A DNA stretch of 58,997 nucleotides from Myxococcales bacterium. GTDB taxonomy: Bacteria; Myxococcota_A; Polyangia; Polyangiales; Polyangiaceae. Where the stretch lies: NCBI GenBank assembly GCA_012514535.1, contig JAAZAA010000117.1, positions 1-58,997 on the forward strand. Direction: 5' to 3'. Under the pieces are notes generated by a model. That model did not search any database. It was given only the letters and a program-made list of their open reading frames with translations, and had not been told where the DNA came from. Made by a program: the position numbers and the translations under genes. Below are positions 2,292 through 30,024 of the stretch, piece by piece; the stretch's first letter is position 1; each line of letters opens with the position of its first letter.

Positions 2292-5200
2292 TCACGGGGC
2301 GAGACGATCGTGCTCGTCGGAGGAGGACGGAGGAGGGACCTCCGCGTGAGGTCGGTCGAGGACCTCGCGGACCTTCTCGAGCAGGGCGTCGGCGGTGAAG
2401 GGTTTGGCCAGGAAGAGCCCCTCGTGATGGGCCACGGTCTCGCGCACGAGGGAGTTCTCGGGGTAGCCCGACACGTACAGGACTCGCAGCGCGGGGCGCG
2501 TGGCCGCCAAGCGCTCCGCGAGCTCGACGCCGCTGATGCGGGGCATGACCACGTCCGTCAGCAGCAGGTGCAGCGGGCCCTCGTGTTGCTCCGCGATGAG
2601 GAACGCCTCCCCCGCGTTCTGCGCTTCGAGCACCGTGTATCCGTTCCGGCGCAGCACGGTGGCGACGAGGGTGCGCACCTGCTCTTCGTTCTCGACGAGC
2701 AGGATGGTCTCGTCGCCGCCGTGGTGGGGCTGTGGTGCGGCGTCGGACGGGCGGCTCTCGCGCTCCTGCTCCGCTCGGGGAAAGTAGATCTCGATGCGGG
2801 AGCCCGCGTTCGGTCGGCTGACGATCTCGATGTGGCCCCCGCTCTGCATCACGGTCCCCCAGACCATGGACAGTCCCAGGCCCGTTCCCCGGTCCGGAGC
2901 CTTCGTGGTGAAGAACGGCTCGAACACGCGCGCTCGGGTGGCGGCGTCCATACCCACGCCCGTGTCCGTGACGGACAGCAGCACGTAGGAGCCCGGTCCG
3001 GGGCCACGGGTCGGCGCGGCGTCCGCGTCGATGGAGACGTTGCTCGTCTCCAGGGTCAGCGTGCCGCCTCGAGGCATCGCGTCGCGGGCGTTGATGACGA
3101 GGTTCATGAGCATCTGCTCGAGCTGCCCCGGATCCGCGCGGATGGCGTCGAGGTCCGGCGCCAGGTGGAGGACGACGCTGATGTCGTCGCCCACGACCCG
3201 CCGCACCATGCGATGGGTCGTGCTCAGGGTCTCGTTCAGATCGAGCTGACGCGGGCGGAGCACCTGCCTGCGGCTGAAGGCGAGGAGCTGGTGGGTGAGC
3301 TCACCGGCGCGCTGGGCGGCCCGGGCGATCTGCGCGAGATCGGGGCGGAGAGGGCTGTCCGCGTCGAGGCTGCCGGTGATGAGCTCCGTGTAGCTCAGGA
3401 TCACGGAGAGCATGTTGTTGAAGTCGTGGGCGACGCCCCCGGCGAGCTGCCCCACCGCTTCCATCTTCTGGGACTGGCGGAGCTGTTCCTGGAGGGCCCG
3501 GCGCTCGTCGATGTCCTGGATGGCGCCGGTGACGCACACGATCTTGCCCTGGGGATCCCGCTCCGCCTGCCCGATGATGCGGGTCCAGATGCGCTTGCCC
3601 GTCGCCGTGACGAGGGGGGCCTCGAGGTCGAAGGGGGTCCCCTCGCGGAGGCACTCGTGCACGGCGTCGGCCACGGACTCCCGGTAGGCGGGATCGCAGT
3701 AGTTGAGCCCCTGGTGCAGATCGAGGGCCGCGTTCGCGGGCAGACCGATGATGTCGAAGGTCTGCTCCGACCCGATCAGCCGGAGAGAGGGCGCCTCGAT
3801 GCGCCAGGCGCCGAGTCGCGCCGTTCGACCAGCCATGCTCAGGAGGGCCTCGCTCGAGCGGAGCTTCCGCTCCGTCTCCGCCTGCTCGAAGGAGCGCGCC
3901 AGCATCTCGCCGATGGAGCGCAACAGCTCGACCTCCTCCGGCAGGAACGTGTCGGCGGGCTCGGCGGGGGGCGGGCGGACGTAGACGACCTCGACGAGGC
4001 CCCGGGGCGCCGCACCCTCGGGGACCGAGCCGAAGGTGTGGCTCAGCTTCCAAGGGCTCTCCGCGAAGCCGGGCGTCTGCGCCGTGACCTCGTCCCAGCG
4101 GAGGCGGGCCTCGCACAGATCCGGGAACTGCCAGCCGCCGGGCAAGAGCGAGACCAGCTCCGACAACAGCTTGGGCTGGGGGAGCGGGTGGCCGCGCAGG
4201 GCCCGCGAGATGGCGTGCAGGGTGCCCAGCTCCTTGACGCGCTCCTGGAGGGTGGCCACCAGACGTCGCCGCTCCCGTGCCGCTTCGACGGAGTCGACCG
4301 CGAAGGCGATGTCGTCGGCGAGGGCGGCGAGCACCCGCTCCGCTTCTCCTCGGAAGTACCCGATCTTCGAGGAGTAGATGATGAGCACGTCGTGAGTGGG
4401 GCGCCCCTGGCGGCGCATCGGGAACGCGCCGCAGGAGCGGAACCCGCGCGCCAGCGCCTCCTCCTTGGAGAAGAAATCCGGATCCGTGGCGATGTCGTCG
4501 GTGATGGCGGGCTCGTTCGAGCGCAGGGCCCGCCCGGTGGGGCCCCAGCCGAAGCGCGGGTCGCGCAGCCGCAGGTGCAGCCCGTCGAGGTAGCCGTCGT
4601 CGGTGCCGAAGCGGGCCAGCACGTCGACGTGATCGCGGGAAGGATCGTGGCGGCCCACCCAGGCGAGCCGCGCGAGCCCCTGTTCGACGGCGATGCGGCA
4701 CGCGACCAGGTAGAGGCTCTCCGTGTCGTGGACCCGGGCGATGGCCTCGTTCACTGCGCTGGAGACGGAGTACAGCTGCGCGATCTCCCGGGCGCGCTCC
4801 TCGCTCCTGCGCAGAGACTCCTGGGCACGGTCCCGGAGGATGGCCAGCGACGCGAGGTGCGTGGCCGAGCGGACCGCGGCTTCTTCGTCGGCGCTGGGGT
4901 GGCGAGGCTCGGGGTAATAGATCGCGAAGGTCCCCAGCAGGGCGCCGTCCGAGGAGAAGATCGGGCTCGACCAGCAGGCGCGGAGCCCGTGCGCCTCCGC
5001 CAGCTCGCGGTACGGATCCCAGAAGGGGTGCGTGCGGATGTCCTCCACGACGACCCGGGCTCGCCGGAAGGCAGCCGCCCCGCAGGAGCCCTCCAGGGGA
5101 CCGATGCGAGAGCCATCGAGGGCCCGCACGTAGGCCTCCGGCAGATGCGGCGCGCTCCCGTGATGGAGCGTCTGATCGCGCTCGTCGTAGAGCAGGATCG

Positions 5201-5492
5201 AGCACAAGACGCCCCGCCCGCGGGACTCGATGAGCTCGACGATGGCGTCCAGGATCGTGGTGAGGGGAGCGCCGCCTGCCAGTTGCTCGAGGATGCGCCA
5301 CTGGGCCGCTTCGAAGGATGATTCCGTGTCGCTTTCGTCCACGCCCCCGCCTCGCTCCTGCGCCGCTCCCCACGCGACGTCGGTGCCCCGAGTTTCGGAA
5401 TGGCAGGAACTCTCCTGCGCAGCAAGCGGCTCCGCGGGCGACGTTGGGTTCGCTCGCCGCGGCGCGCTCGTCCGTCGACCCTCCGGGGCCAT
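2292..5492 (-). CDS. cytoplasmic GAF/PAS hybrid sensor histidine kinase with C-terminal receiver
   Basis: About 1066 residues with no membrane segment. In order: two GAF domains (about 50-200 and 225-390; the first has RGRGVLCSILLYDE and GSCGAAAFRR typical of GAF), a third GAF-like region (about 400-530), a PAS domain (about 545-655, ending GAIQDIDERR), a HisKA domain with the phospho-accepting His in GGVAHDFNNMLSVI near 687, a HATPase_c domain (NLVINARDAMP, DTGVGMD, GTGLGLSMV) and a receiver with Asp in LLLTDVVMP near 979 and Lys in LAKPF. The HDFNN-type H-box is common in hybrid kinases with soluble sensors. It may autophosphorylate and pass phosphate to its own receiver and an unknown partner. 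TTG (5510), ATG (5492) and GTG (5342) starts are possible; the GTG would remove an Arg/Pro-rich leader of about 50 residues that looks unlike the rest. Confidence 0.9.
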   Translation of the reverse strand: MAPEGRRTSAPRRANPTSPAEPLAAQESSCHSETRGTDVAWGAAQERGGGVDESDTESSFEAAQWRILEQLAGGAPLTTILDAIVELIESRGRGVLCSILLYDERDQTLHHGSAPHLPEAYVRALDGSRIGPLEGSCGAAAFRRARVVVEDIRTHPFWDPYRELAEAHGLRACWSSPIFSSDGALLGTFAIYYPEPRHPSADEEAAVRSATHLASLAILRDRAQESLRRSEERAREIAQLYSVSSAVNEAIARVHDTESLYLVACRIAVEQGLARLAWVGRHDPSRDHVDVLARFGTDDGYLDGLHLRLRDPRFGWGPTGRALRSNEPAITDDIATDPDFFSKEEALARGFRSCGAFPMRRQGRPTHDVLIIYSSKIGYFRGEAERVLAALADDIAFAVDSVEAARERRRLVATLQERVKELGTLHAISRALRGHPLPQPKLLSELVSLLPGGWQFPDLCEARLRWDEVTAQTPGFAESPWKLSHTFGSVPEGAAPRGLVEVVYVRPPPAEPADTFLPEEVELLRSIGEMLARSFEQAETERKLRSSEALLSMAGRTARLGAWRIEAPSLRLIGSEQTFDIIGLPANAALDLHQGLNYCDPAYRESVADAVHECLREGTPFDLEAPLVTATGKRIWTRIIGQAERDPQGKIVCVTGAIQDIDERRALQEQLRQSQKMEAVGQLAGGVAHDFNNMLSVILSYTELITGSLDADSPLRPDLAQIARAAQRAGELTHQLLAFSRRQVLRPRQLDLNETLSTTHRMVRRVVGDDISVVLHLAPDLDAIRADPGQLEQMLMNLVINARDAMPRGGTLTLETSNVSIDADAAPTRGPGPGSYVLLSVTDTGVGMDAATRARVFEPFFTTKAPDRGTGLGLSMVWGTVMQSGGHIEIVSRPNAGSRIEIYFPRAEQERESRPSDAAPQPHHGGDETILLVENEEQVRTLVATVLRRNGYTVLEAQNAGEAFLIAEQHEGPLHLLLTDVVMPRISGVELAERLAATRPALRVLYVSGYPENSLVRETVAHHEGLFLAKPFTADALLEKVREVLDRPHAEVPPPSSSDEHDRLAP

Positions 5493-5612
5493 CCTTCCCC
5501 ATGAGGTCAATGGGTCCGCGTCTACCGGCCGCCCGGGCGTCGCGAGGGTTGGTCGAAGACCCGAGCTCGACGGGCGCGCCCGCGCCTCAGGTGTCGGGGA
5601 TGCTGGGAGGAG

Positions 5613-5942
5613 TCAGGCGTGGCCGCGACCGGTCACGATGGGCGAGAGCGACGGGCCCGCGAGCTCGAGGTCCTCGCGGGTACGGTGCCCGGCGTCGGCG
5701 GCGACCGCGCGTCCCAGGGTGGCGAGCAGGTCCGAGAGCGCCTCGGGGCACAGGCGCAGGGTGAGCACCCCGAGCTGCAGGTGCATGACGCCGCAATCAC
5801 ATCGATCGACGGCCGCCACGGAGCCCTGGGCGAGGCGGACCTTGCGACACTGATGACCACCGCTCGTCGCGTCTTGGGGGCGCATCGTCCGTTCCACGAA
5901 CGGCGAGGGAAGGGCTGCCCGGGTCTTGGAGCTGCGGCTCAT
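5613..5942 (-). CDS. small conserved-looking protein with CxC-G motif, unknown function
   Basis: A 109-residue protein, chosen to start at ATG 5942 just four bases after the stop of the upstream lipoprotein gene, so the pair is very likely one transcript. After a poorly ordered N-terminus comes a compact core: KVRLAQGSVAAVDRCDCGVM, then HLQLGVLTLRLCPEALSDLL. This looks like a short beta-hairpin around a Cys-x-Cys-Gly turn followed by an amphipathic helix. I do not recognise a named family and assign no activity; the Cys pair could bind metal or be redox-active, which is inference. Its position downstream of a lipoprotein that shares a Fur-box-like promoter region with a TonB receptor suggests a role in iron or heme homeostasis. 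Confidence 0.65.
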   Translation of the reverse strand: MSRSSKTRAALPSPFVERTMRPQDATSGGHQCRKVRLAQGSVAAVDRCDCGVMHLQLGVLTLRLCPEALSDLLATLGRAVAADAGHRTREDLELAGPSLSPIVTGRGHA

Positions 5943-5946
5943 GGCT

Positions 5947-6819
5947 TCACCGCGCCCCTTCCGATGGAACGTCGCCCAGGCCGCGCGTGACGCAGGAGGA
6001 GGCGGAGCAGGACCACGAAACGACCGACGGGTCCGCATCGATGGCGCCCGCCTGGTAGAGGTACATGCCCTTGGCCTTCGCGATGATCCCGAGGGCGCCT
6101 CCCCAGTGCGCTTCGCTGCCGTAGGCGGTGTCCTCCGTGAGCGTCGTGAAGTCGGAGCAAGTGGCGCCGTTCACACCATCCACCCACAGGACGAACCGCG
6201 GAGCGCGATCCACGGCGCCGTCGCCGAGGTCGAAGCACAGGGTGGAGGGACCGCCCGTGAAGGAGTGGTCGCCGGACAGGGTGGCGGAGGCCTCGCCGAA
6301 CGACACGTGCACGTCCTTGGGGGTCCCCGAGTAGAGCATGATCTTGAACTGGTCCGCGGCCAGCGGCCCCTGGGTGCTCGTCGGGGGTTCGTCGAAGCCG
6401 AGGAACAGCTGCACCGACGTGTGCCCGGCGCCCGCGTCCACGTTCTCGAGGCGCACGTGCTGGGGGGCTCCGTCGGCGGGGCGGCACACCTCGACGATCT
6501 GGGCGGTCCCGTTCGCTGCCAGCGTCGTCCGGCAGCCTCCCTCCGGCTGAGGAGGCTCGTCAGCGTCGGACCCGCCCCCCGTGTCCGCTGCGCCCGCCTC
6601 TCCGCCGAGGCCGTCCGGCGCGCCACCGCCGGTGCCCTCTTCGTCGATGGGGGCGTTGGTGTCGCCACCGCTGGCGGAGCTCCCTCCGGTGCTCTCCCCG
6701 GAGCGGCCGCCGGCTCCGTCCGGGTCGTCGCTCGAGGCCGAGCTCGACCCGCTGCAGGACGCCAGCAGGAGCAGAGGAAGCAAGAGGGAGGGACGACGGA
6801 GGTCGAGGAGAGAGCGCAT
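5947..6819 (-). CDS. lipoprotein of unknown function divergent from the TonB receptor
   Basis: The 290-residue product begins with a clear lipoprotein signal peptide (LLLPLLLLASC, Cys near 22), a Ser/Gly/Asp linker to about residue 90, and a C-terminal domain of about 200 residues. That domain has four or more Cys (GGCRTTL, VEVCRP, LCFDLGDG, WSCSASSCV) that could form disulfides, and beta-rich sequence such as FVLWVDGVNG and GIIAKAKGMYLY. No family is recognised. It is transcribed away from the TonB-receptor gene across a 307-base gap holding two Fur-box-like sites, and is followed by the small CxC-G gene. I infer a surface lipoprotein expressed under iron limitation; the function itself is not readable from the sequence. 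Confidence 0.75.
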   Translation of the reverse strand: MRSLLDLRRPSLLLPLLLLASCSGSSSASSDDPDGAGGRSGESTGGSSASGGDTNAPIDEEGTGGGAPDGLGGEAGAADTGGGSDADEPPQPEGGCRTTLAANGTAQIVEVCRPADGAPQHVRLENVDAGAGHTSVQLFLGFDEPPTSTQGPLAADQFKIMLYSGTPKDVHVSFGEASATLSGDHSFTGGPSTLCFDLGDGAVDRAPRFVLWVDGVNGATCSDFTTLTEDTAYGSEAHWGGALGIIAKAKGMYLYQAGAIDADPSVVSWSCSASSCVTRGLGDVPSEGAR

Positions 6820-6940
6820 GGAAAACTCGTTCGGCGAGGGGCCAGCCGGGGACGCGGCCGGCGCGTTGATGGTTCACGCCCCCCGGCCGCGGGTGCCGGG
6901 CACACCCGGGGAGGGCCGCCGCAAGCTAGTGGATGTCGCA

Positions 6941-6959
6941 GAAAATGAAAATCAATTTC
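6941..6959. promoter_or_regulatory. Fur-box-like site 1
   Basis: GAAAATGAAAATCAATTTC matches the classical 19-bp Fur box (GATAATGATAATCATTATC) at 15 of 19 positions, counted by eye. It is an AT-rich island in DNA of about 70% GC, which makes a chance match less likely. It sits about 120 bases upstream of the leftward lipoprotein gene and in the same gap as the rightward TonB receptor. It probably acts as an operator for an iron-responsive Fur-family repressor. Confidence 0.65.
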
Positions 6960-7029
6960 ATCACGGTGACGGGAGACGGTGTGATTGGTGGTGGAAGTCC
7001 GGATTGTTGGGATCACTCCGGGCGCTTGT

Positions 7030-7048
7030 TGAAAAGAATTTTCATTTT
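7030..7048. promoter_or_regulatory. Fur-box-like site 2
   Basis: GAAAAGAATTTTCATTTTC; read on the minus strand it matches the Fur consensus at 14 of 19 positions. It lies 79 bases upstream of the TonB-receptor ATG and overlaps a weak promoter candidate (TTGTTG at 7025, 17-base spacer, CATCTT). With site 1 it gives each divergent gene its own nearby operator, the two sites being 89 bases apart. Confidence 0.6.
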
Positions 7049-7126
7049 CATCTTGAGGGGGCAGCTCGCTCGGACTATCTCAGGCGCCGCCCCTCGCGAG
7101 CGGGTCGTCGCTCGCAGCGCTCCGTC

Positions 7127-9526
7127 ATGGCTCGTCCCCCCGTGCGCTCCAGACGTGTCCACGTCGTCGTCCTCACCCTGCTCGGCCTGCTGTCGAGCAG
7201 CCCTGCCATCGCGCAGGGGGAGGTGAGCGCGCCGCGCTTGGCCCGCTGGGTGGACGCGGATCTGCCCCCGGAGGTGTCCCTGGGCGCGCGGGGACTGCGG
7301 GTGGGCCTGCACCTGCTCGTCACACCCACCGGAGAGGTGGGGGAGGTGCAGGTCGTGGAGCCCCTGGGTGCGGTGATCGATCGGGCGGTGGAGTCCGCCG
7401 CTCGGCGGCTCCGCTTCGTGCCCGCCCGACGAGGAGGGCGGCCCGTGGCGGCGCGCATCGCCTACGCCTACGAGGTGGGCGGGGATCCGCTCCTTCGGGC
7501 GTCGCGTCCCTGGGAGGAAGCGGACGCTCACCGAACCTTGGAGCCGGCGCTCGCTTCTCGCGGGGGGGGCTCCGCCAAAGCGACGTCGCCCGCCGAAGCG
7601 ACGTCGCCGGCAGGAACGTTGCTCGGCGCCAGATCGCCCGCAGCGACGTCGCTCGCAGGAGGGTCGCCTGCAGATCCACCGCTCGAGGTGCCCCGGGCGG
7701 AACCCGAAGAAGAGGAGATCGTCGTCACGGGGGCCCGCATGGGGGAGCGCGCGGCGGACGCGGTGGTCGCCACGGACGTGATCCGTCGGCGCCAGCTGGA
7801 GGAAAATGGCTGGCGCACCGTCGCCGAGGCGTTGGAGGAGCAGCCGGGGGTTCAGGTCGTGCGCTCCTTCCGCGGCGCGGAGCTGTGGCTCCGTGGGCTC
7901 GGCCCCCGCTACACGCTCGTGCTCGTCGACGGCAACCGCGTCCCCGGGCGCTCCGGCGGAGCCATCGATCTCGAGCGCTACGCGAGCCAGGGGATCGAGC
8001 GCGTCGAGATCGTGCGGGGACCGAGCTCGGCGCTCTACGGCTCCGACGCCATCGGCGGGGTCGTGAACATCATCCCCCGCGAGCCCAAGGGAGAGCTCGA
8101 GGCGGACGCGCAGGCGCGGATCTCGAGCAACTCCCACGACGGCAGCGCCCGCATCTCGGGCCAGCCGCTGGCGGGGCTCGGCGTCGAGCTCGAAGGGGGG
8201 CGGCTGCACACGGACGCGATCCCCGGGCAGGAGGGCCCCGCCACCAGCGCCAGCGCGCGGACCCAGAACTTCGTCGGGGGCGCGGTCACCTGGGGCGAGC
8301 CCCGGCGCAATCAGCTGCGTCTGGAGTCGGATTACGTGCGGACCGAGCTGGTGGGGGTGGACGCGGGCGCCGCGGGCGCGGTGTTCGATCGCACACAGCT
8401 CCAGGAGCTGGCGCAGTTCGCCCTGCGCCAGCGGTTGTCTCGAGGCATCGTGCAGCTCGAGCAGCGCCTCGCCTACAGCATCTACCGGGAGCAGTATCTG
8501 CTCGATCAGCGGGGGGCCAGCGCTCTCGACTCCGTCGAGGAGAACCGCGACCAGGTCGCGCACCTGAGCTCGGTGCTCCGGATCGAGGGCAGCGCGCGCC
8601 ACCACACGACCGTGGGCGGTGAGCACCTCTTCGAGCACATGGAGGCGGAGCGCCTCGCGGAGCCGGGGCGCCGCACGCGCTCGGCGCTCTTCGCTCAGCA
8701 CGAGTATCGCCCCCTCGATGGGCGCCATCGTCTCCGCTTCGTGCCGGGCGTGCGCTTCGATCTCGACTCCCAGTTTGGACATCAGGTGAGCCCGAAGCTC
8801 GCGGCGCGCTTCGATCTGGGAGAGGACTGGGTGTTTCGCGGGGGCTACGGCCACGGGTTCCGCGCGCCCTCCTTCCAGGAGCTGCACCTGCGCTTCGAGA
8901 ATCCGAGCGTCGGGTACGCGGTCGGCGGCAACCCCCACCTGGAGGCGGAACGCGCCCGGGGGATCGATCTGGGCGTGGAGGGCGTGCTCAGCGACGCCGT
9001 GCAGGTGTCGGGCACGCTGTTCCGCAACGACCTCTCGAACATGATCACGCCCGTCACCACCCCGGAGGGGCAGGCGATGACCCTGTTCACCTACGACAAC
9101 CTCGCCACGGCGCGGACCCAGGGGGTGGAGTCCACCGTGCGCATTGCGCCCCTGGAGGGGGTCTCGTTTCTGGGCGGCTACACCTTCACCGACACCTGGG
9201 ACGGCGAGCACCGCAGGGCGATCCCCGGGCAGGCACGCCATCGCGTCACCGGGAGCGTGCGCGTGGAGCACCGGCCGTCCCGCGTGGTGTTCGTGCTGCG
9301 CGGCGCCACGTCCCTCGAGAGGAAGTACTACGCGAGCGCTGCGGAGGGGCAGCCGGAGCGCGAGATCGTGGCGGACGCGCTCACCCTCGTCGACGCGCGG
9401 GTGACCCACACCTTCTCGCGAACCTTCGAGCTGTTCGGCGGCGTCGACAACGTCCTCGACGTCGCGGACCCGTACACCATCGTCTTTCCTCGCACCTACT
9501 ACGTTGGCCTGCGAGGCCGGCACTGA
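7127..9526 (+). CDS. TonB-dependent outer-membrane receptor with N-terminal TonB-C-like domain (heme/siderophore type)
   Basis: 799 residues from the ATG that directly precedes a signal peptide (VVVLTLLGLLSSSPAIAQG). Residues about 30-110 look like a TonB C-terminal domain (VGLHLLVTPTGEVGEVQVVE, then SAARRLRFVPARRGGRPVAA). A repetitive Ala/Thr/Ser/Pro linker (about 145-190) leads to a TonB-box-like EEEEIVVTGAR, a plug domain (AEALEEQPGVQV, GPRYTLVLVDGNRVPG, GPSSALYGSDAIGGVVNI) and a beta-barrel ending in the usual aromatic C-terminal strand (TYYVGLRGRH). The plug and barrel belong to the BtuB/HmuR-type receptor class that imports heme, siderophores or cobalamin. The Fur-like sites upstream and the HmuY-like gene 29 bases downstream favour heme. 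A TonB-like domain fused to its own receptor is unusual; it might contact the periplasmic energising machinery directly. Confidence 0.9.
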   Translation: MARPPVRSRRVHVVVLTLLGLLSSSPAIAQGEVSAPRLARWVDADLPPEVSLGARGLRVGLHLLVTPTGEVGEVQVVEPLGAVIDRAVESAARRLRFVPARRGGRPVAARIAYAYEVGGDPLLRASRPWEEADAHRTLEPALASRGGGSAKATSPAEATSPAGTLLGARSPAATSLAGGSPADPPLEVPRAEPEEEEIVVTGARMGERAADAVVATDVIRRRQLEENGWRTVAEALEEQPGVQVVRSFRGAELWLRGLGPRYTLVLVDGNRVPGRSGGAIDLERYASQGIERVEIVRGPSSALYGSDAIGGVVNIIPREPKGELEADAQARISSNSHDGSARISGQPLAGLGVELEGGRLHTDAIPGQEGPATSASARTQNFVGGAVTWGEPRRNQLRLESDYVRTELVGVDAGAAGAVFDRTQLQELAQFALRQRLSRGIVQLEQRLAYSIYREQYLLDQRGASALDSVEENRDQVAHLSSVLRIEGSARHHTTVGGEHLFEHMEAERLAEPGRRTRSALFAQHEYRPLDGRHRLRFVPGVRFDLDSQFGHQVSPKLAARFDLGEDWVFRGGYGHGFRAPSFQELHLRFENPSVGYAVGGNPHLEAERARGIDLGVEGVLSDAVQVSGTLFRNDLSNMITPVTTPEGQAMTLFTYDNLATARTQGVESTVRIAPLEGVSFLGGYTFTDTWDGEHRRAIPGQARHRVTGSVRVEHRPSRVVFVLRGATSLERKYYASAAEGQPEREIVADALTLVDARVTHTFSRTFELFGGVDNVLDVADPYTIVFPRTYYVGLRGRH

Positions 9527-9555
9527 GCGTTACGACGCTCTCGAGAGTTCGTCCC

Positions 9556-10308
9556 ATGCCCATCCGAGACCTCACCTCAGTTCTCTTCCTCACCGCTCTG
9601 ATCGGCGGGTGCGCCGAGCGTCTGGAGCCCGAGGGAGCTCCCCTGGAGGAGCTTCCGTCCGACCCGTCGGGGCCCGAGGCGGGCTCCTTCCCGAGCCGGA
9701 GCGGCAAGTTCACCCACGTCGTGGGGAGCGACGGCGTCATCACCACCGTCGTCGACGCAAGTGATGACTCCTCCTGGCAGATCTTGGATCTGGACAGCGG
9801 TCACGCCGGCGACGAGGGCTGGGACCTGGGATTCTCGCGCTTCCGAGTCAAGTCGAACGGCGGCGTCAGCGGTGGGGGGGGAGTGCAGGTGGCGCCCCTG
9901 GACGGCGTGGAGTTCGCGTCCGTGGACGAGCCGCCCGCCTCGGGGTGGCTGTTCGATCGCGAGGCGGAGGCGAGCGACGACGCCCCCGCCTTCGTGAGCG
10001 CGCTGCGCAACGCGTTCCACCGCGAGGACGCCGAGTGGTACGAGTACGACGGCGCGACCCACATGCTGACGCCGAAGGACATCACCTTCGTGGTCGCGTC
10101 TTCGGCAGGGCGCTTCTACGAGCTGCGCTTCGACTCCTACTACGACGACGCGGGATCCCCCGCCGTGGTGAAGTTTCGGTGGGCCGAGCTCGACGGCGAC
10201 GAGCCCGAGCTGCCGCCCATCGACGTCGAGCCAGCGCCGGTCACCCCCGAGAAGGCTCGAGAACCCGACGACTTGGCCGATGCGGGGCCCGGCCGGACGT
10301 CCCTGTGA
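9556..10308 (+). CDS. HmuY-like heme-binding lipoprotein
   Basis: 250 residues with a lipoprotein signal (LTSVLFLTALIGGC, Cys 19). The mature part carries hallmarks of the HmuY family as I know it: an early WDLGFSRFRVKSNGG segment, a central YEYDGATHMLTPKDITFVV segment and the C-terminal YELRFDSYYDDAG followed by VVKFRWAELD. HmuY captures heme from host or environmental hemoproteins and hands it to the TonB receptor HmuR. Here the gene follows a TonB receptor by 29 bases and precedes a Kelch lipoprotein by 14, so the three form one operon. The heme ligands (two His in Porphyromonas HmuY, Met in some relatives) cannot be placed with certainty; His and Met near THMLTP are candidates. I leave the gene symbol blank because the homology is by motif only. 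Confidence 0.8.
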   Translation: MPIRDLTSVLFLTALIGGCAERLEPEGAPLEELPSDPSGPEAGSFPSRSGKFTHVVGSDGVITTVVDASDDSSWQILDLDSGHAGDEGWDLGFSRFRVKSNGGVSGGGGVQVAPLDGVEFASVDEPPASGWLFDREAEASDDAPAFVSALRNAFHREDAEWYEYDGATHMLTPKDITFVVASSAGRFYELRFDSYYDDAGSPAVVKFRWAELDGDEPELPPIDVEPAPVTPEKAREPDDLADAGPGRTSL

Positions 10309-10322
10309 AGGAGAAGAAGATC

Positions 10323-12446
10323 GTGAAACGTCCTTGTGTTTTGATGAGTGTTTTGGTCTCCGGCTGCGCTGGGGGGGCGCAGCTCTCCGACGCGCGGGAG
10401 CCCACTCCAGCGCCTCCCGCGCTCGAGGCGACGAGCGGCGCCGGCGCGGTGGTGGAGCCCTCCGCGGTCTCCCCCGCCACGCACGTCCGGACGACGGGAG
10501 ACCTGCTCCCGCCGATGGAGCGAGCCGTGACGAGCTTCGGCGCGGCCACGGATGGCAAGTTCGCCTACGTGCTCGGGGGGTACTCCGGCACGCCCCACGC
10601 CTACTCCAGGGAGGGGCAGTCCCGCGCGGTGCTGCGGCTCCCCCTGTCCGGTGAGGGCGGGTGGGAGGAGGTCGGGGACCTTGGGGTGGGGCTCCAGGGG
10701 CTCTCGGCCGTGAGCCACCGGGGCGAGGTCTGTCACTTCGGGGGTAACCGCGTCGACAACGCCGCCAGCGAGCCCACCGTGATGTATTCGGTCGCGACGG
10801 CCCGCTGCCTCGATCCGGGGACGGGGGTGTGGCGCGATCTGCCCGATCTGCCGAAGGGGCGCTCGTCCCACGAGGGGGCGCTCGTGGGGAGCCAGGTGTT
10901 CCTCGCGGGGGGCTGGCGCGTCGAGAAGACCTCCGAGCAGGTGGAGTGGGCGCGTGATCTGCTCGTGCTCGACCTGGAGGCGCCCGGCGCGGGGTGGCGC
11001 GGCGTGCCCGCGCCGTTCCAGCGCCGGGCGGTGGGCGTCGCGGCCGTCGGGACGCAGGTCGTGGTGGTCGGCGGCATCACCCCGGAGCGAGAGGTCAGCC
11101 AGCGCGTGGACGTGTTCGACACGGAGACGCAGCGCTGGAGCCGCGGCCCCGACTACCCCGCGGAGGCGTTCGGCGTCGCGGTGACGAGCCACGAGGGGGC
11201 CATCTACGCCTCGGCGCGGGACGGCGTGCTCCGGCGCTGGGCTCCGGGCGACGGCGCCTGGACGGACGTGAAGCCGCTGCTGTTCGGCCGCTTCTTCCAC
11301 CAGCTGGTGTCCGGCCCCGAGGGGCTGATCGCCCTCGGCGGCATCGAAGGGATGCACACGGAGGGGCGCACCCGGCAGGTGGAGCGGCTCCACCTCGGCG
11401 CCCCCGAGCCACGCGTCTCGACCCTGGAGCTCGACTTCCCGGGCGCCGCGAAGAACCGCTCCGGCTGGTTCGTCGACGGCGAGCGCCTCTACCTCTTCGG
11501 TGGGAACAACGGCCTCGAGCAGCACGACTTCGAGCCGGAGCGCTTCGTCTCCGAGGGGTGGCGCCTCCACCTCGCGGCGCTCCACTGGCAACGGATCGCC
11601 GACTTCCCCCTGCGTCGGCAGACGATGCAGACGGCGCGCGTCGGCGGAGCCGGGTTGGTCGTGGGCGGCTTCGGGCATGAGCCCGCGCCCTCGGCGAACG
11701 GCGAAGCCCAGTCCCACGGGGAGGCGTTCCTGTACGACTTTGGCGCGAACCGTTGGACGGAGCGGGCTGGCCTGTCCCGGGGGCGAACGCAGTTCGGGCT
11801 CGCCGTGCACGGCGACCGGCTCTGGATCTTCGGAGGGTTGAACTACGACGCGAGCCGTGAGGGAGCCGAGGCCTTCGATCACGTGACCGACGTGCTCGTC
11901 GCGTCCGCGCAGGACGTGCAGTCGCCCTTCGTGCCGAGTGGCGTCGAGCTGCCCGGGCCGCGGCGCGCCTTCGCCGGGGCGGTGCTCGGGGACAAGTACT
12001 ACCTGGTGGGCGGCATGCGCGGCGGGTTCGAGCTGGTGGAGGACTGCCACGCCTTCGACTTCCGGACGCGCACGTTCGCGACGATCGCGTGCCCGAGCGA
12101 GCCGCGGCTCTCGGGGGATCTCGTCGCGGTCGGCGGCAAGCTCTACCTGGTGGGCGGCTCCGTGCAGAGGCCTGTGCAGAGGCCTGCGCAGGAGTCCGCG
12201 CAGGGACCCGGACAGCGGCAGAGCGGTCTGCTGGAGAGCCGGCAGATCCAAGTCTACGATCCGGAGAACGACCGCTGGACGGACCTCGGGGTGGAGGTCC
12301 CCTTCGAGACGCGGCACATGCGCGCGCTCGCCTACGACGGGAGGCTGCTCCTGGTCTCCACGCATCAGAAGGAGGCCCGGATGCGCATCGGCCTCGTCGA
12401 GGTGGGGACGCCCCGCGAGGGGGCAACGGCTCCCGCCGCGCGCTGA
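10323..12446 (+). CDS. Kelch-repeat lipoprotein of the heme-uptake operon
   Basis: 707 residues from a GTG preceded by a good AAGGAGAAGAAG ribosome-binding site. The signal peptide is short and ends in a lipobox (VLVSGCAGG). The mature protein is built from about ten Kelch-type repeats, seen as recurring GG followed by spaced Trp or Tyr: YVLGGYSGT, CHFGGNRV, FLAGGWRV, VVGGITPER, IALGGIEGM, YLFGGNNG, VVGGFGHEP, WIFGGLNYD, YLVGGMRGG, YLVGGSVQ. That many blades suggests one or two beta-propellers, which usually mediate protein-protein or glycan contacts. A Gln/Pro/Arg-rich insertion (about 615-635) interrupts the last blades. Surface anchoring and operon position suggest a binding partner of the receptor/HmuY pair; that is inference. 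Confidence 0.85.
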   Translation: MKRPCVLMSVLVSGCAGGAQLSDAREPTPAPPALEATSGAGAVVEPSAVSPATHVRTTGDLLPPMERAVTSFGAATDGKFAYVLGGYSGTPHAYSREGQSRAVLRLPLSGEGGWEEVGDLGVGLQGLSAVSHRGEVCHFGGNRVDNAASEPTVMYSVATARCLDPGTGVWRDLPDLPKGRSSHEGALVGSQVFLAGGWRVEKTSEQVEWARDLLVLDLEAPGAGWRGVPAPFQRRAVGVAAVGTQVVVVGGITPEREVSQRVDVFDTETQRWSRGPDYPAEAFGVAVTSHEGAIYASARDGVLRRWAPGDGAWTDVKPLLFGRFFHQLVSGPEGLIALGGIEGMHTEGRTRQVERLHLGAPEPRVSTLELDFPGAAKNRSGWFVDGERLYLFGGNNGLEQHDFEPERFVSEGWRLHLAALHWQRIADFPLRRQTMQTARVGGAGLVVGGFGHEPAPSANGEAQSHGEAFLYDFGANRWTERAGLSRGRTQFGLAVHGDRLWIFGGLNYDASREGAEAFDHVTDVLVASAQDVQSPFVPSGVELPGPRRAFAGAVLGDKYYLVGGMRGGFELVEDCHAFDFRTRTFATIACPSEPRLSGDLVAVGGKLYLVGGSVQRPVQRPAQESAQGPGQRQSGLLESRQIQVYDPENDRWTDLGVEVPFETRHMRALAYDGRLLLVSTHQKEARMRIGLVEVGTPREGATAPAAR

Positions 12447-29295: not shown

Positions 29296-30024
29296 TCACC
29301 GACCGCGGCTCGGCGCGTCGTCGCGGGGCGGCGGCGCGAAGCTCGCGCGGAGCGTGGACGAGCACTCCTTCTCGAGGCTGCGATCCAACAAGAGATTGAT
29401 CATCGTCATCGTGTCCGCGAGATCGCCCGCGGGCGCGCTCTGCGCCGTGCAGCGGCGTAAGCGATCTCCGTTCGTGGCCGCGCGCAGCACCGTACCGATC
29501 TCCTGCAGAGGGAGCACCAGCCGTCGCCGCAGCCGTCGCAGCGTCATGATGCCGACGACGAAACCTCCGGCGCCGAGGACGACCATCGCCCAGGCGCCGG
29601 CGATACCGAGGCGCTGGGCGGACTCGTCCGCGCTCCTCATGGCTCGCCGGTTGATGGCGCCGAGAGCGCGGAGCTCCGCGCTCAGGCGCCGCGCCGCCGC
29701 GTCATCGCCCGCGAGCGCCGGCCCCGAGAGGCGCGCGATTTCCTCGAGAGCCCGTCCTTCCGGCTCCTCCGTGACGTTCTGGCGGGCCACGGCGAGCGCC
29801 TCGTCGAAGTTGCGGCGCGCGACCTCCAGGGGTTCTCCGAGACGCGCCCGCAGCGCGGCGTCGAGCATGCCCTCCACCGCGGACACGCTCGCCACGTTCT
29901 CCTCGATGATGCGTTCGATGGCGGGCGCCATGCGCCCGAACAGGGCGACGGCGGCGAGGGAGGTCACGACGTGAAGGCCGAGGAGCACCGAGAAGGCCAG
30001 GGTGAGCTGCCGGTCCGTCCGCAT
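29296..30024 (-). CDS. HAMP-type membrane protein lacking an output domain, end of ktr operon
   Basis: 242 residues starting two bases after the ktrA stop, so translation is coupled. Layout: TM1 (LTLAFSVLLGLHVVTSLAAV), an extracytoplasmic helical region of about 130 residues (four-helix-bundle-like, many Ala/Arg/Glu), TM2 (AWAMVVLGAGGFVVGIMTL), then a HAMP-like segment (RRRLVLPLQEIGTVLRAATN) and about 45 residues with no kinase, methyl-accepting or cyclase domain. This is the architecture of a chemoreceptor or kinase sensor half that stops after HAMP. It may sense osmotic or ionic state and interact with KtrA/KtrB or with a separate kinase; no direct evidence for either. Confidence 0.75.
   Translation of the reverse strand: MRTDRQLTLAFSVLLGLHVVTSLAAVALFGRMAPAIERIIEENVASVSAVEGMLDAALRARLGEPLEVARRNFDEALAVARQNVTEEPEGRALEEIARLSGPALAGDDAAARRLSAELRALGAINRRAMRSADESAQRLGIAGAWAMVVLGAGGFVVGIMTLRRLRRRLVLPLQEIGTVLRAATNGDRLRRCTAQSAPAGDLADTMTMINLLLDRSLEKECSSTLRASFAPPPRDDAPSRGR

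Follow-up and report, generated by a model that had tools for sequence, protein, structure and literature searches.

A TonB C-terminal domain at the front of a predicted heme receptor and of many other TonB-dependent receptors of the Myxococcota

A gene of a Myxococcales bacterium encodes a TonB-dependent receptor that begins with the C-terminal domain (CTD) of TonB, and receptor frames fronted in the same way recur across the phylum Myxococcota. The gene lies in the window, which is the whole stretch of DNA that was analyzed (58,997 nucleotides, contig JAAZAA010000117.1).

Layout of the receptor

The open frame at 7127-9526 (+ strand) encodes a protein of 799 amino acids, designated P0001 (C19 in the numbering of its own genome). 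Profile matches, a structure model, and inspection by eye showed the predicted order of parts expected of a TonB-dependent receptor with one addition: a signal peptide, a TonB CTD, a flexible linker, a TonB box, a plug, and a barrel. The features are as follows.

7127-9526, + strand: TonB-dependent receptor with N-terminal TonB CTD (open frame; Pfam TonB_C, Plug, and barrel)
7127-7213, + strand: signal-peptide-like stretch, residues 1-29 (RR, hydrophobic core, AIA/Q; read by eye)
7223-7480, + strand: TonB CTD, residues 33-118 (Pfam 58-115; model and fold match 33-118)
7481-7711, + strand: low-complexity Ala/Ser/Pro/Gly linker, residues 119-195, 77 residues (sequence, low pLDDT, and poor identity)
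7715-7738, + strand: TonB box EIVVTGAR, residues 197-204 (sequence; core invariant in orthologs)
7757-8062, + strand: plug domain, residues 211-312 (Pfam PF07715, 84.6 bits; cutoff, 23.9)
8267-9454, + strand: 22-strand-type beta-barrel region, residues 381-776 (Pfam PF00593, 153.2 bits; cutoff, 27)

A reading made from the sequence alone had proposed that the domain is followed by a TonB-box-like EIVVTGAR and then the plug, and both were found at the expected places (box at residues 197-204, Pfam Plug at 211-312). Residues V199, V200, T201, G202, and R204 of the box are invariant in an alignment of 9 orthologs. The sequence also supports the proposal that the domain is exported with the receptor and has no membrane helix. 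The start of the protein resembles a signal peptide, about 3 residues separate the likely cleavage site from the CTD, and inspection by eye found no hydrophobic helix before the CTD except the signal-peptide-like stretch. Neither an inner-membrane helix with a motor-binding motif nor a proline-rich periplasmic spacer was seen by eye before the CTD of P0001, unlike the TonB and FusB transducers, with which it shares the CTD fold. An assembly artifact was rejected because the ortholog L126, from a Polyangiaceae MAG, and 43 other receptors also carry TonB_C before the receptor.

Identity of the N-terminal domain

Pfam TonB_C matched residues 58-115 of P0001 (E = 4.1e-7; 30.8 bits against a cutoff of 24.6). 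A phmmer search with residues 25-126 against PDB sequences gave six matches at an E value of 10 or below, all six of them to TonB (best E, 8e-4). The fold was evaluated with an AlphaFold model of P0001 residues 25-335, made from 40 sequences, only two of which covered the CTD (mean pLDDT, 77.9; pTM, 0.49). Blocks of 10 residues within the CTD part (model residues 11-90) had mean pLDDT values of 87-96, and the linker (model residues 101-146) had values below 50. The elements of the CTD follow one another as a short strand, a helix, two strands, a helix, and further strands. A single-sequence model of the CTD alone (mean pLDDT, 52) was not used.

In a plain Foldseek search, the 50 matches listed were to the plug, and the CTD was therefore judged from VIA-align. 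There, 9 of the 50 listed matches fell in the CTD part, and all nine were TonB-family CTDs. The best was the CTD of P. aeruginosa TonB (6i97_D; Z of 9.3 over 85 of 90 residues, rmsd of 2.4), and the others included E. coli, Salmonella, and Neisseria TonB as well as FusB (7zc8 and 9hi3).

An STN or carboxypeptidase-like N terminus was rejected because Pfam finds TonB_C in P0001 and neither STN nor CarboxypepD_reg at E values up to 1. STN was also absent from the 16 Pfam families found across 44 TonB_C-bearing receptors. No STN fold was among the 50 VIA-align matches listed, an absence that by itself excludes nothing. A chance match was rejected as well, since the PDB phmmer matches and the fold matches were all TonB. 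These results confirm that the N-terminal domain of P0001 is a TonB CTD, as the sequence-only reading had it, with limits of residues 33-118 rather than 30-110. The structure comparison that it had suggested, TonB-C against STN, returned TonB CTDs, and the STN or carboxypeptidase-like fold that would have spoken against it was not found.

Distribution of the layout

The layout is not confined to P0001. Members of the MxcH family carry it, and among 95 genomes sampled from the phylum, presumed to be Myxococcota, CTD-fronted receptor frames were found in at least 58 (56 from the MxcH profile survey and 2 from the TonB_C survey), in at least 18 of 29 families. The possibility that P0001 is an orphan was rejected for the same reasons. 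In its own genome, TonB_C matched in 12 places and Plug in 14, and seven receptors bear a CTD (C19, which is P0001, and C48, C132, C149, C190, C275, and C68). The CTD of C68 was found with the home-made and MxcH profiles and not with Pfam TonB_C. Both C48 and C68 exceed the cutoff for MxcH, the myxochelin receptor.

Among the best 150 TonB_C matches in the 95 Myxococcota genomes, 39 lay in frames of at least 800 amino acids. These 39 frames were combined with receptors of the own genome, P0001 included, into a chosen set of 44. TonB_C and the MxcH profile each matched all 44, Plug matched 43, CarboxypepD_reg 34, and the barrel model 30. In the MxcH profile survey, 94 of the 150 matches listed were receptor-sized frames starting with a CTD (match start at position 25 or lower, open frame of at least 700 amino acids, no internal stop), and these came from 56 genomes. 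The Pfam check of the frames counted covered 38 of them and those of the own genome.

A set of 50 genomes, chosen for holding receptors like P0001, yielded 19 such frames, in 5 genomes titled Polyangiaceae, Sandaracinus, Myxococcales, or Myxococcota. None was in the 45 genomes titled as other groups, among the matches listed. The nearest exception outside Myxococcota was at G161:C76:16068-16499, where a TonB_C match runs through an internal TAG into a receptor-sized frame of 688 amino acids. This frame looks as if tonB and receptor genes had been joined head to tail.

A free TonB frame lies beside the receptor in 5 of 43 loci. In the own genome, one (G000:C190:37774-38501, locus L014) is followed directly by a receptor with TonB_C, a CarboxypepD-like stretch, and a plug, and similar neighbors occur at L093, L109, L118, and L119. 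TonB_C was also found at the end of a peptidase-like membrane protein of 623 amino acids (G000:C237; L015:1761-3632), M56/BlaR1-like by eye, where a weak plug-like match (22.4 bits, below the cutoff) comes before it.

Neighboring genes and predicted role

The surroundings of the receptor gene contain the following features.

5947-6819, - strand: divergent lipoprotein-like gene (open frame; relatives beside ortholog L039)
6941-6959, no strand assigned: Fur-box-like site, 15/19 against the E. coli consensus (best of 58,979 window positions)
7031-7049, no strand assigned: Fur-box-like site, 14/19 (one of two window positions with 14, the other at 29392)
9556-10308, + strand: HmuY-family lipoprotein gene, directly downstream of the receptor (Pfam HmuY, 49 bits; cutoff, 27)
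10305-12446, + strand: kelch-repeat lipoprotein-like gene, third in the row (Pfam Kelch)

Both Fur-box-like sites lie in the intergenic stretch 6820-7126, between the receptor and the divergent lipoprotein-like gene, which had no Pfam match at an E value of 0.01. The sites were scored against what we take to be the E. coli consensus. In the 330 bases upstream of the receptor at nine ortholog loci, which include L040 and L126 with apparently the same protein, a Fur-box-like site of 13-15/19 was present in six, and the other three reached only 8-9. Of 15 ortholog loci, many of them short, 11 had an HmuY match next to the receptor and 4 had a kelch relative. Downstream of the receptor at L038, L039, L041, L128, L129, and L130, separate tblastn matches mark two or three tandem HmuY-like genes or stretches. 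The four flanking frames from 2292 to 12446 gave Pfam matches to a kinase, to nothing, to HmuY, and to kelch, respectively, and no sigma or anti-sigma match.

The best partial NCBIfam matches of P0001 were to CirA-like, vitamin B12, and heme receptors, all below cutoff; for the heme receptor subfamily TIGR01785, the score was 161.4 bits against a cutoff of 316.85. Prevotella and Bacteroidales receptors were among the relatives of P0001 in a contig search. Because an HmuY gene adjoins the receptor gene and two Fur-box-like sites lie upstream of it, P0001 is probably an iron-regulated heme importer that works with the HmuY lipoprotein. HmuR-HmuY of Porphyromonas gingivalis likewise pairs a TonB-dependent receptor of the heme/CirA/BtuB kind with an adjacent HmuY gene. 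P0001 differs in its N-terminal TonB_C, its Myxococcota host, the kelch gene in the row, and a ligand that is predicted to be heme.

Origin of the domain

Close orthologs differ in the CTD, which P0001, L040, and L042 have and which L038, L039 (same genus), L041, and L124 lack. All seven form one clade (support, 100/100) in a barrel tree of 21 receptors with and 23 without the CTD, a tree in which long branches meet and from which L130 was excluded for its wrong frame start. In the domain tree, built on a small number of columns (86 of 89 kept) and with a bootstrap that has not settled, the domains of P0001 and L040 are paired (100/94) within a group (97/88) that also holds L125, L017, and L100. 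By score, L017 and L100 are MxcH members (1061.1 and 1098.6 bits; cutoff, 925), and L125 groups with both of them by barrel (100/100). Because the P0001 domain sits with MxcH domains of another barrel class and its barrel sits in the HmuY-linked clade, the domain looks borrowed from, or common to, MxcH-type receptors. On the evidence of the trees, domain shuffling from an MxcH-type receptor is the probable source of the CTD. The label receptor-borne or free changed 6 times on the domain tree, compared with 27.1 times in shuffles, and the receptor-borne domains may have had one origin or several.

The fraction of residues identical between P0001 and L040 was 38/81 for TonB_C, 200/478 for the barrel, 76/125 for the plug, and 4/38 for the linker. 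Identity in the CTD is similar to that in the barrel, whereas the linker has diverged; the CTD evolves under constraint. A "middle" row and the duplicate L066 were removed before the domain tree, conservation, and charge comparisons were made. Two pairs of proteins, L040 and L126 and L054 and L127, are apparently identical. A contig search led by plug motifs returned at least 80 barrel relatives, and among those listed only L126 had a CTD, as judged with the home-made profile.

Receptor-borne and free domains compared

We compared 46 receptor-borne domains with 36 free ones; with relatedness among the rows and a free set that was not sampled at random, the p values serve only as a guide. The net charge of helix 1 was -0.87 in the receptor-borne domains and +1.14 in the free domains (Mann-Whitney p = 1.3e-5), and thinned sets of 30 and 27 rows still differed (p = 4.4e-4). 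Whole-domain mean charge was -2.83 for the receptor-borne and +3.17 for the free domains. The last strand, which binds the TonB box, had a mean charge of 1.50 in both sets, with 11 of the 36 free rows lacking much of this strand in the alignment, and it keeps its alternating hydrophobic pattern in the receptor-borne domains. At a position that presumably corresponds to W213 of E. coli TonB, tryptophan was found in 6 of 46 receptor-borne domains versus 24 of 36 free ones, and the loop that joins strand 2 to helix 2 was one residue shorter in 45 of 46 versus 11 of 36.

Helix 1 of P0001 is neutral, and the free TonB adjoining the C190 receptor has a charge of -1 there. The phmmer alignment places an arginine of P0001 opposite R271 of P. 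aeruginosa TonB (counted from chain start 251). Two P. aeruginosa TonB residues, R271 of helix 1 among them, bind the FoxA barrel (PMC6699858). With helix 1 altered, the strand kept, and a helix 1 residue binding the barrel in FoxA, the receptor-borne domains would fit box binding without barrel docking.

Possible functions of the domain

The sequence-only reading had offered three roles for the domain: recruitment of a partner, competition with free TonB, and signaling. The TonB CTD binds the TonB box by strand addition (PMC11658791, PMC10907165). A receptor-borne CTD could be a periplasmic docking module that controls the access of TonB to the receptor. The long linker would tether the CTD to the receptor's own TonB box, and the CTD would cap this box, or that of a neighboring receptor, once the box was released. 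ExbBD-linked TonB would have to compete with the CTD for the box, and energized opening would come to depend on the ligand being tightly bound or on the amount of TonB. Our tentative reading, which may well be wrong, is that in P0001, a probable heme importer, a CTD that was probably shuffled in most likely caps the receptor's own TonB box and makes TonB compete for it. The retention of the TonB box in P0001 is consistent with this reading. Against it, the model contains no confident contact between the CTD and the TonB box, with the linker below a pLDDT of 50 and a pTM of 0.49, and helix 1 of P0001 is neutral rather than acidic, with one arginine aligned with R271. The TonB box is not recognizable by a simple pattern in many other CTD-bearing receptors. 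The CTD is also dispensable, because orthologs without it exist, one of them (L039) in the same genus. Apo FoxA keeps its TonB box within the barrel (PMC6699858), and capping would thus come into play only once ligand had bound.

It is conceivable, if somewhat improbable, that the receptor-borne CTD instead forms a pair with the free TonB's CTD and keeps TonB close to the receptor until the box is released. Such pre-docking would assist TonB and not compete with it. TonB-family CTDs can dimerize, as illustrated by FusB-CTD in a monomer-dimer equilibrium (PMC13253070), and in FoxA a segment upstream of the TonB box gives constitutive binding to TonB (PMC6699858). The acidic average of the receptor-borne domains and the basic average of the free ones would suit such a mixed pair, and the free TonB frames found beside receptors in 5 of 43 loci are consistent with it. 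However, the neutral helix 1 of P0001 and the charge of -1 on that of the free TonB beside the C190 receptor do not follow these averages.

The patchy presence of the CTD among orthologs would be expected if the domain were a relic or a spacer, or made contact with peptidoglycan, with no role in energizing the receptor. Such an explanation is unlikely given that the CTD is as conserved as the barrel while the linker has drifted, and that the domain has been retained phylum-wide. It is more unlikely still that the domain is a signaling tail that talks to an inner-membrane regulator as STN does: it occupies the place of STN and is periplasmic, but STN was not matched in P0001 at E values up to 1 or among the 16 families of the 44 receptors, and the four flanking frames gave no sigma or anti-sigma match, which lends signaling no support. 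A domain that handles substrate or hemophore, as the FusB CTD binds ferredoxin in import, is very unlikely, because the same domain type occurs on several barrel classes with presumably different ligands, even though FusB CTDs (7zc8 and 9hi3) are among the fold matches, FusB directly binds its protein substrate (PMC13253070), and the adjoining gene encodes an HmuY hemophore-like protein.

Relation to known systems and implications

The closest known layout is that of MxcH (NCBIfam NF038079), whose members share an N-terminal TonB_C before the plug and barrel. C48 of the own genome scored 1061.1 bits over model positions 1-790 (cutoff, 925), with a TonB_C match of 53.7 bits. In contrast, P0001 matches only model positions 1-251, at 91.2 bits, far under 925; its TonB_C groups with two MxcH members, and its barrel is of another class. 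The FecA/FpvA/FoxA transducers (STN, plug, and barrel) likewise have an extra periplasmic domain before the TonB box, which in P0001 is TonB_C and not STN. An N-terminal extension is also shared with Oar/SusC-type receptors (CarboxypepD_reg, plug, and barrel), and CarboxypepD_reg is present in 34 of the 44 TonB_C receptors, whereas P0001 itself has no match to it at E values up to 1.

A survey of 34,893 receptors with Pfam 31 recognized five N-terminal architectures, with none, CarboxypepD_reg, STN, and AMIN as the extensions (Gomez-Santos 2019; PMC6434023), and TonB_C is not among the domains named in the portions of that survey available. TonB_C-fronted receptors are likewise not mentioned in the available portions of a 2025 study of TonB/TolA evolution (PMC12204202) or of a 2024 review (PMC11658791), and those of a list of M. 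xanthus receptors (PMC3222651) name no such domain. NCBIfam includes TonB_C in MxcH without remark, as far as its listing shows. In the open-license literature we found no account of a TonB-dependent receptor that begins with a TonB CTD and no functional test of such a domain. Thus, the parts are known and one named family, MxcH, has the layout, but we found no description of its phylum-wide use inside receptors.

How a small number of TonB molecules serve many receptors and what keeps TonB off empty ones are long-standing questions. A receptor in which a TonB CTD accompanies the receptor's TonB box offers a natural experiment, in that the CTD can be removed or mutated without touching the plug, box, or barrel. 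Receptors inflate the counts of "TonB" genes that are made from domain matches in Myxococcota, because 39 of the best 150 TonB_C matches in the 95 genomes lie in receptor-sized frames. The main interest is less this gene than the phylum-wide use of the receptor-binding domain of TonB inside receptors. It is possible, though doubtful, that a large share of the TonB-dependent receptors of one phylum carry the TonB CTD as a sixth N-terminal architecture that would gate their own energizing.
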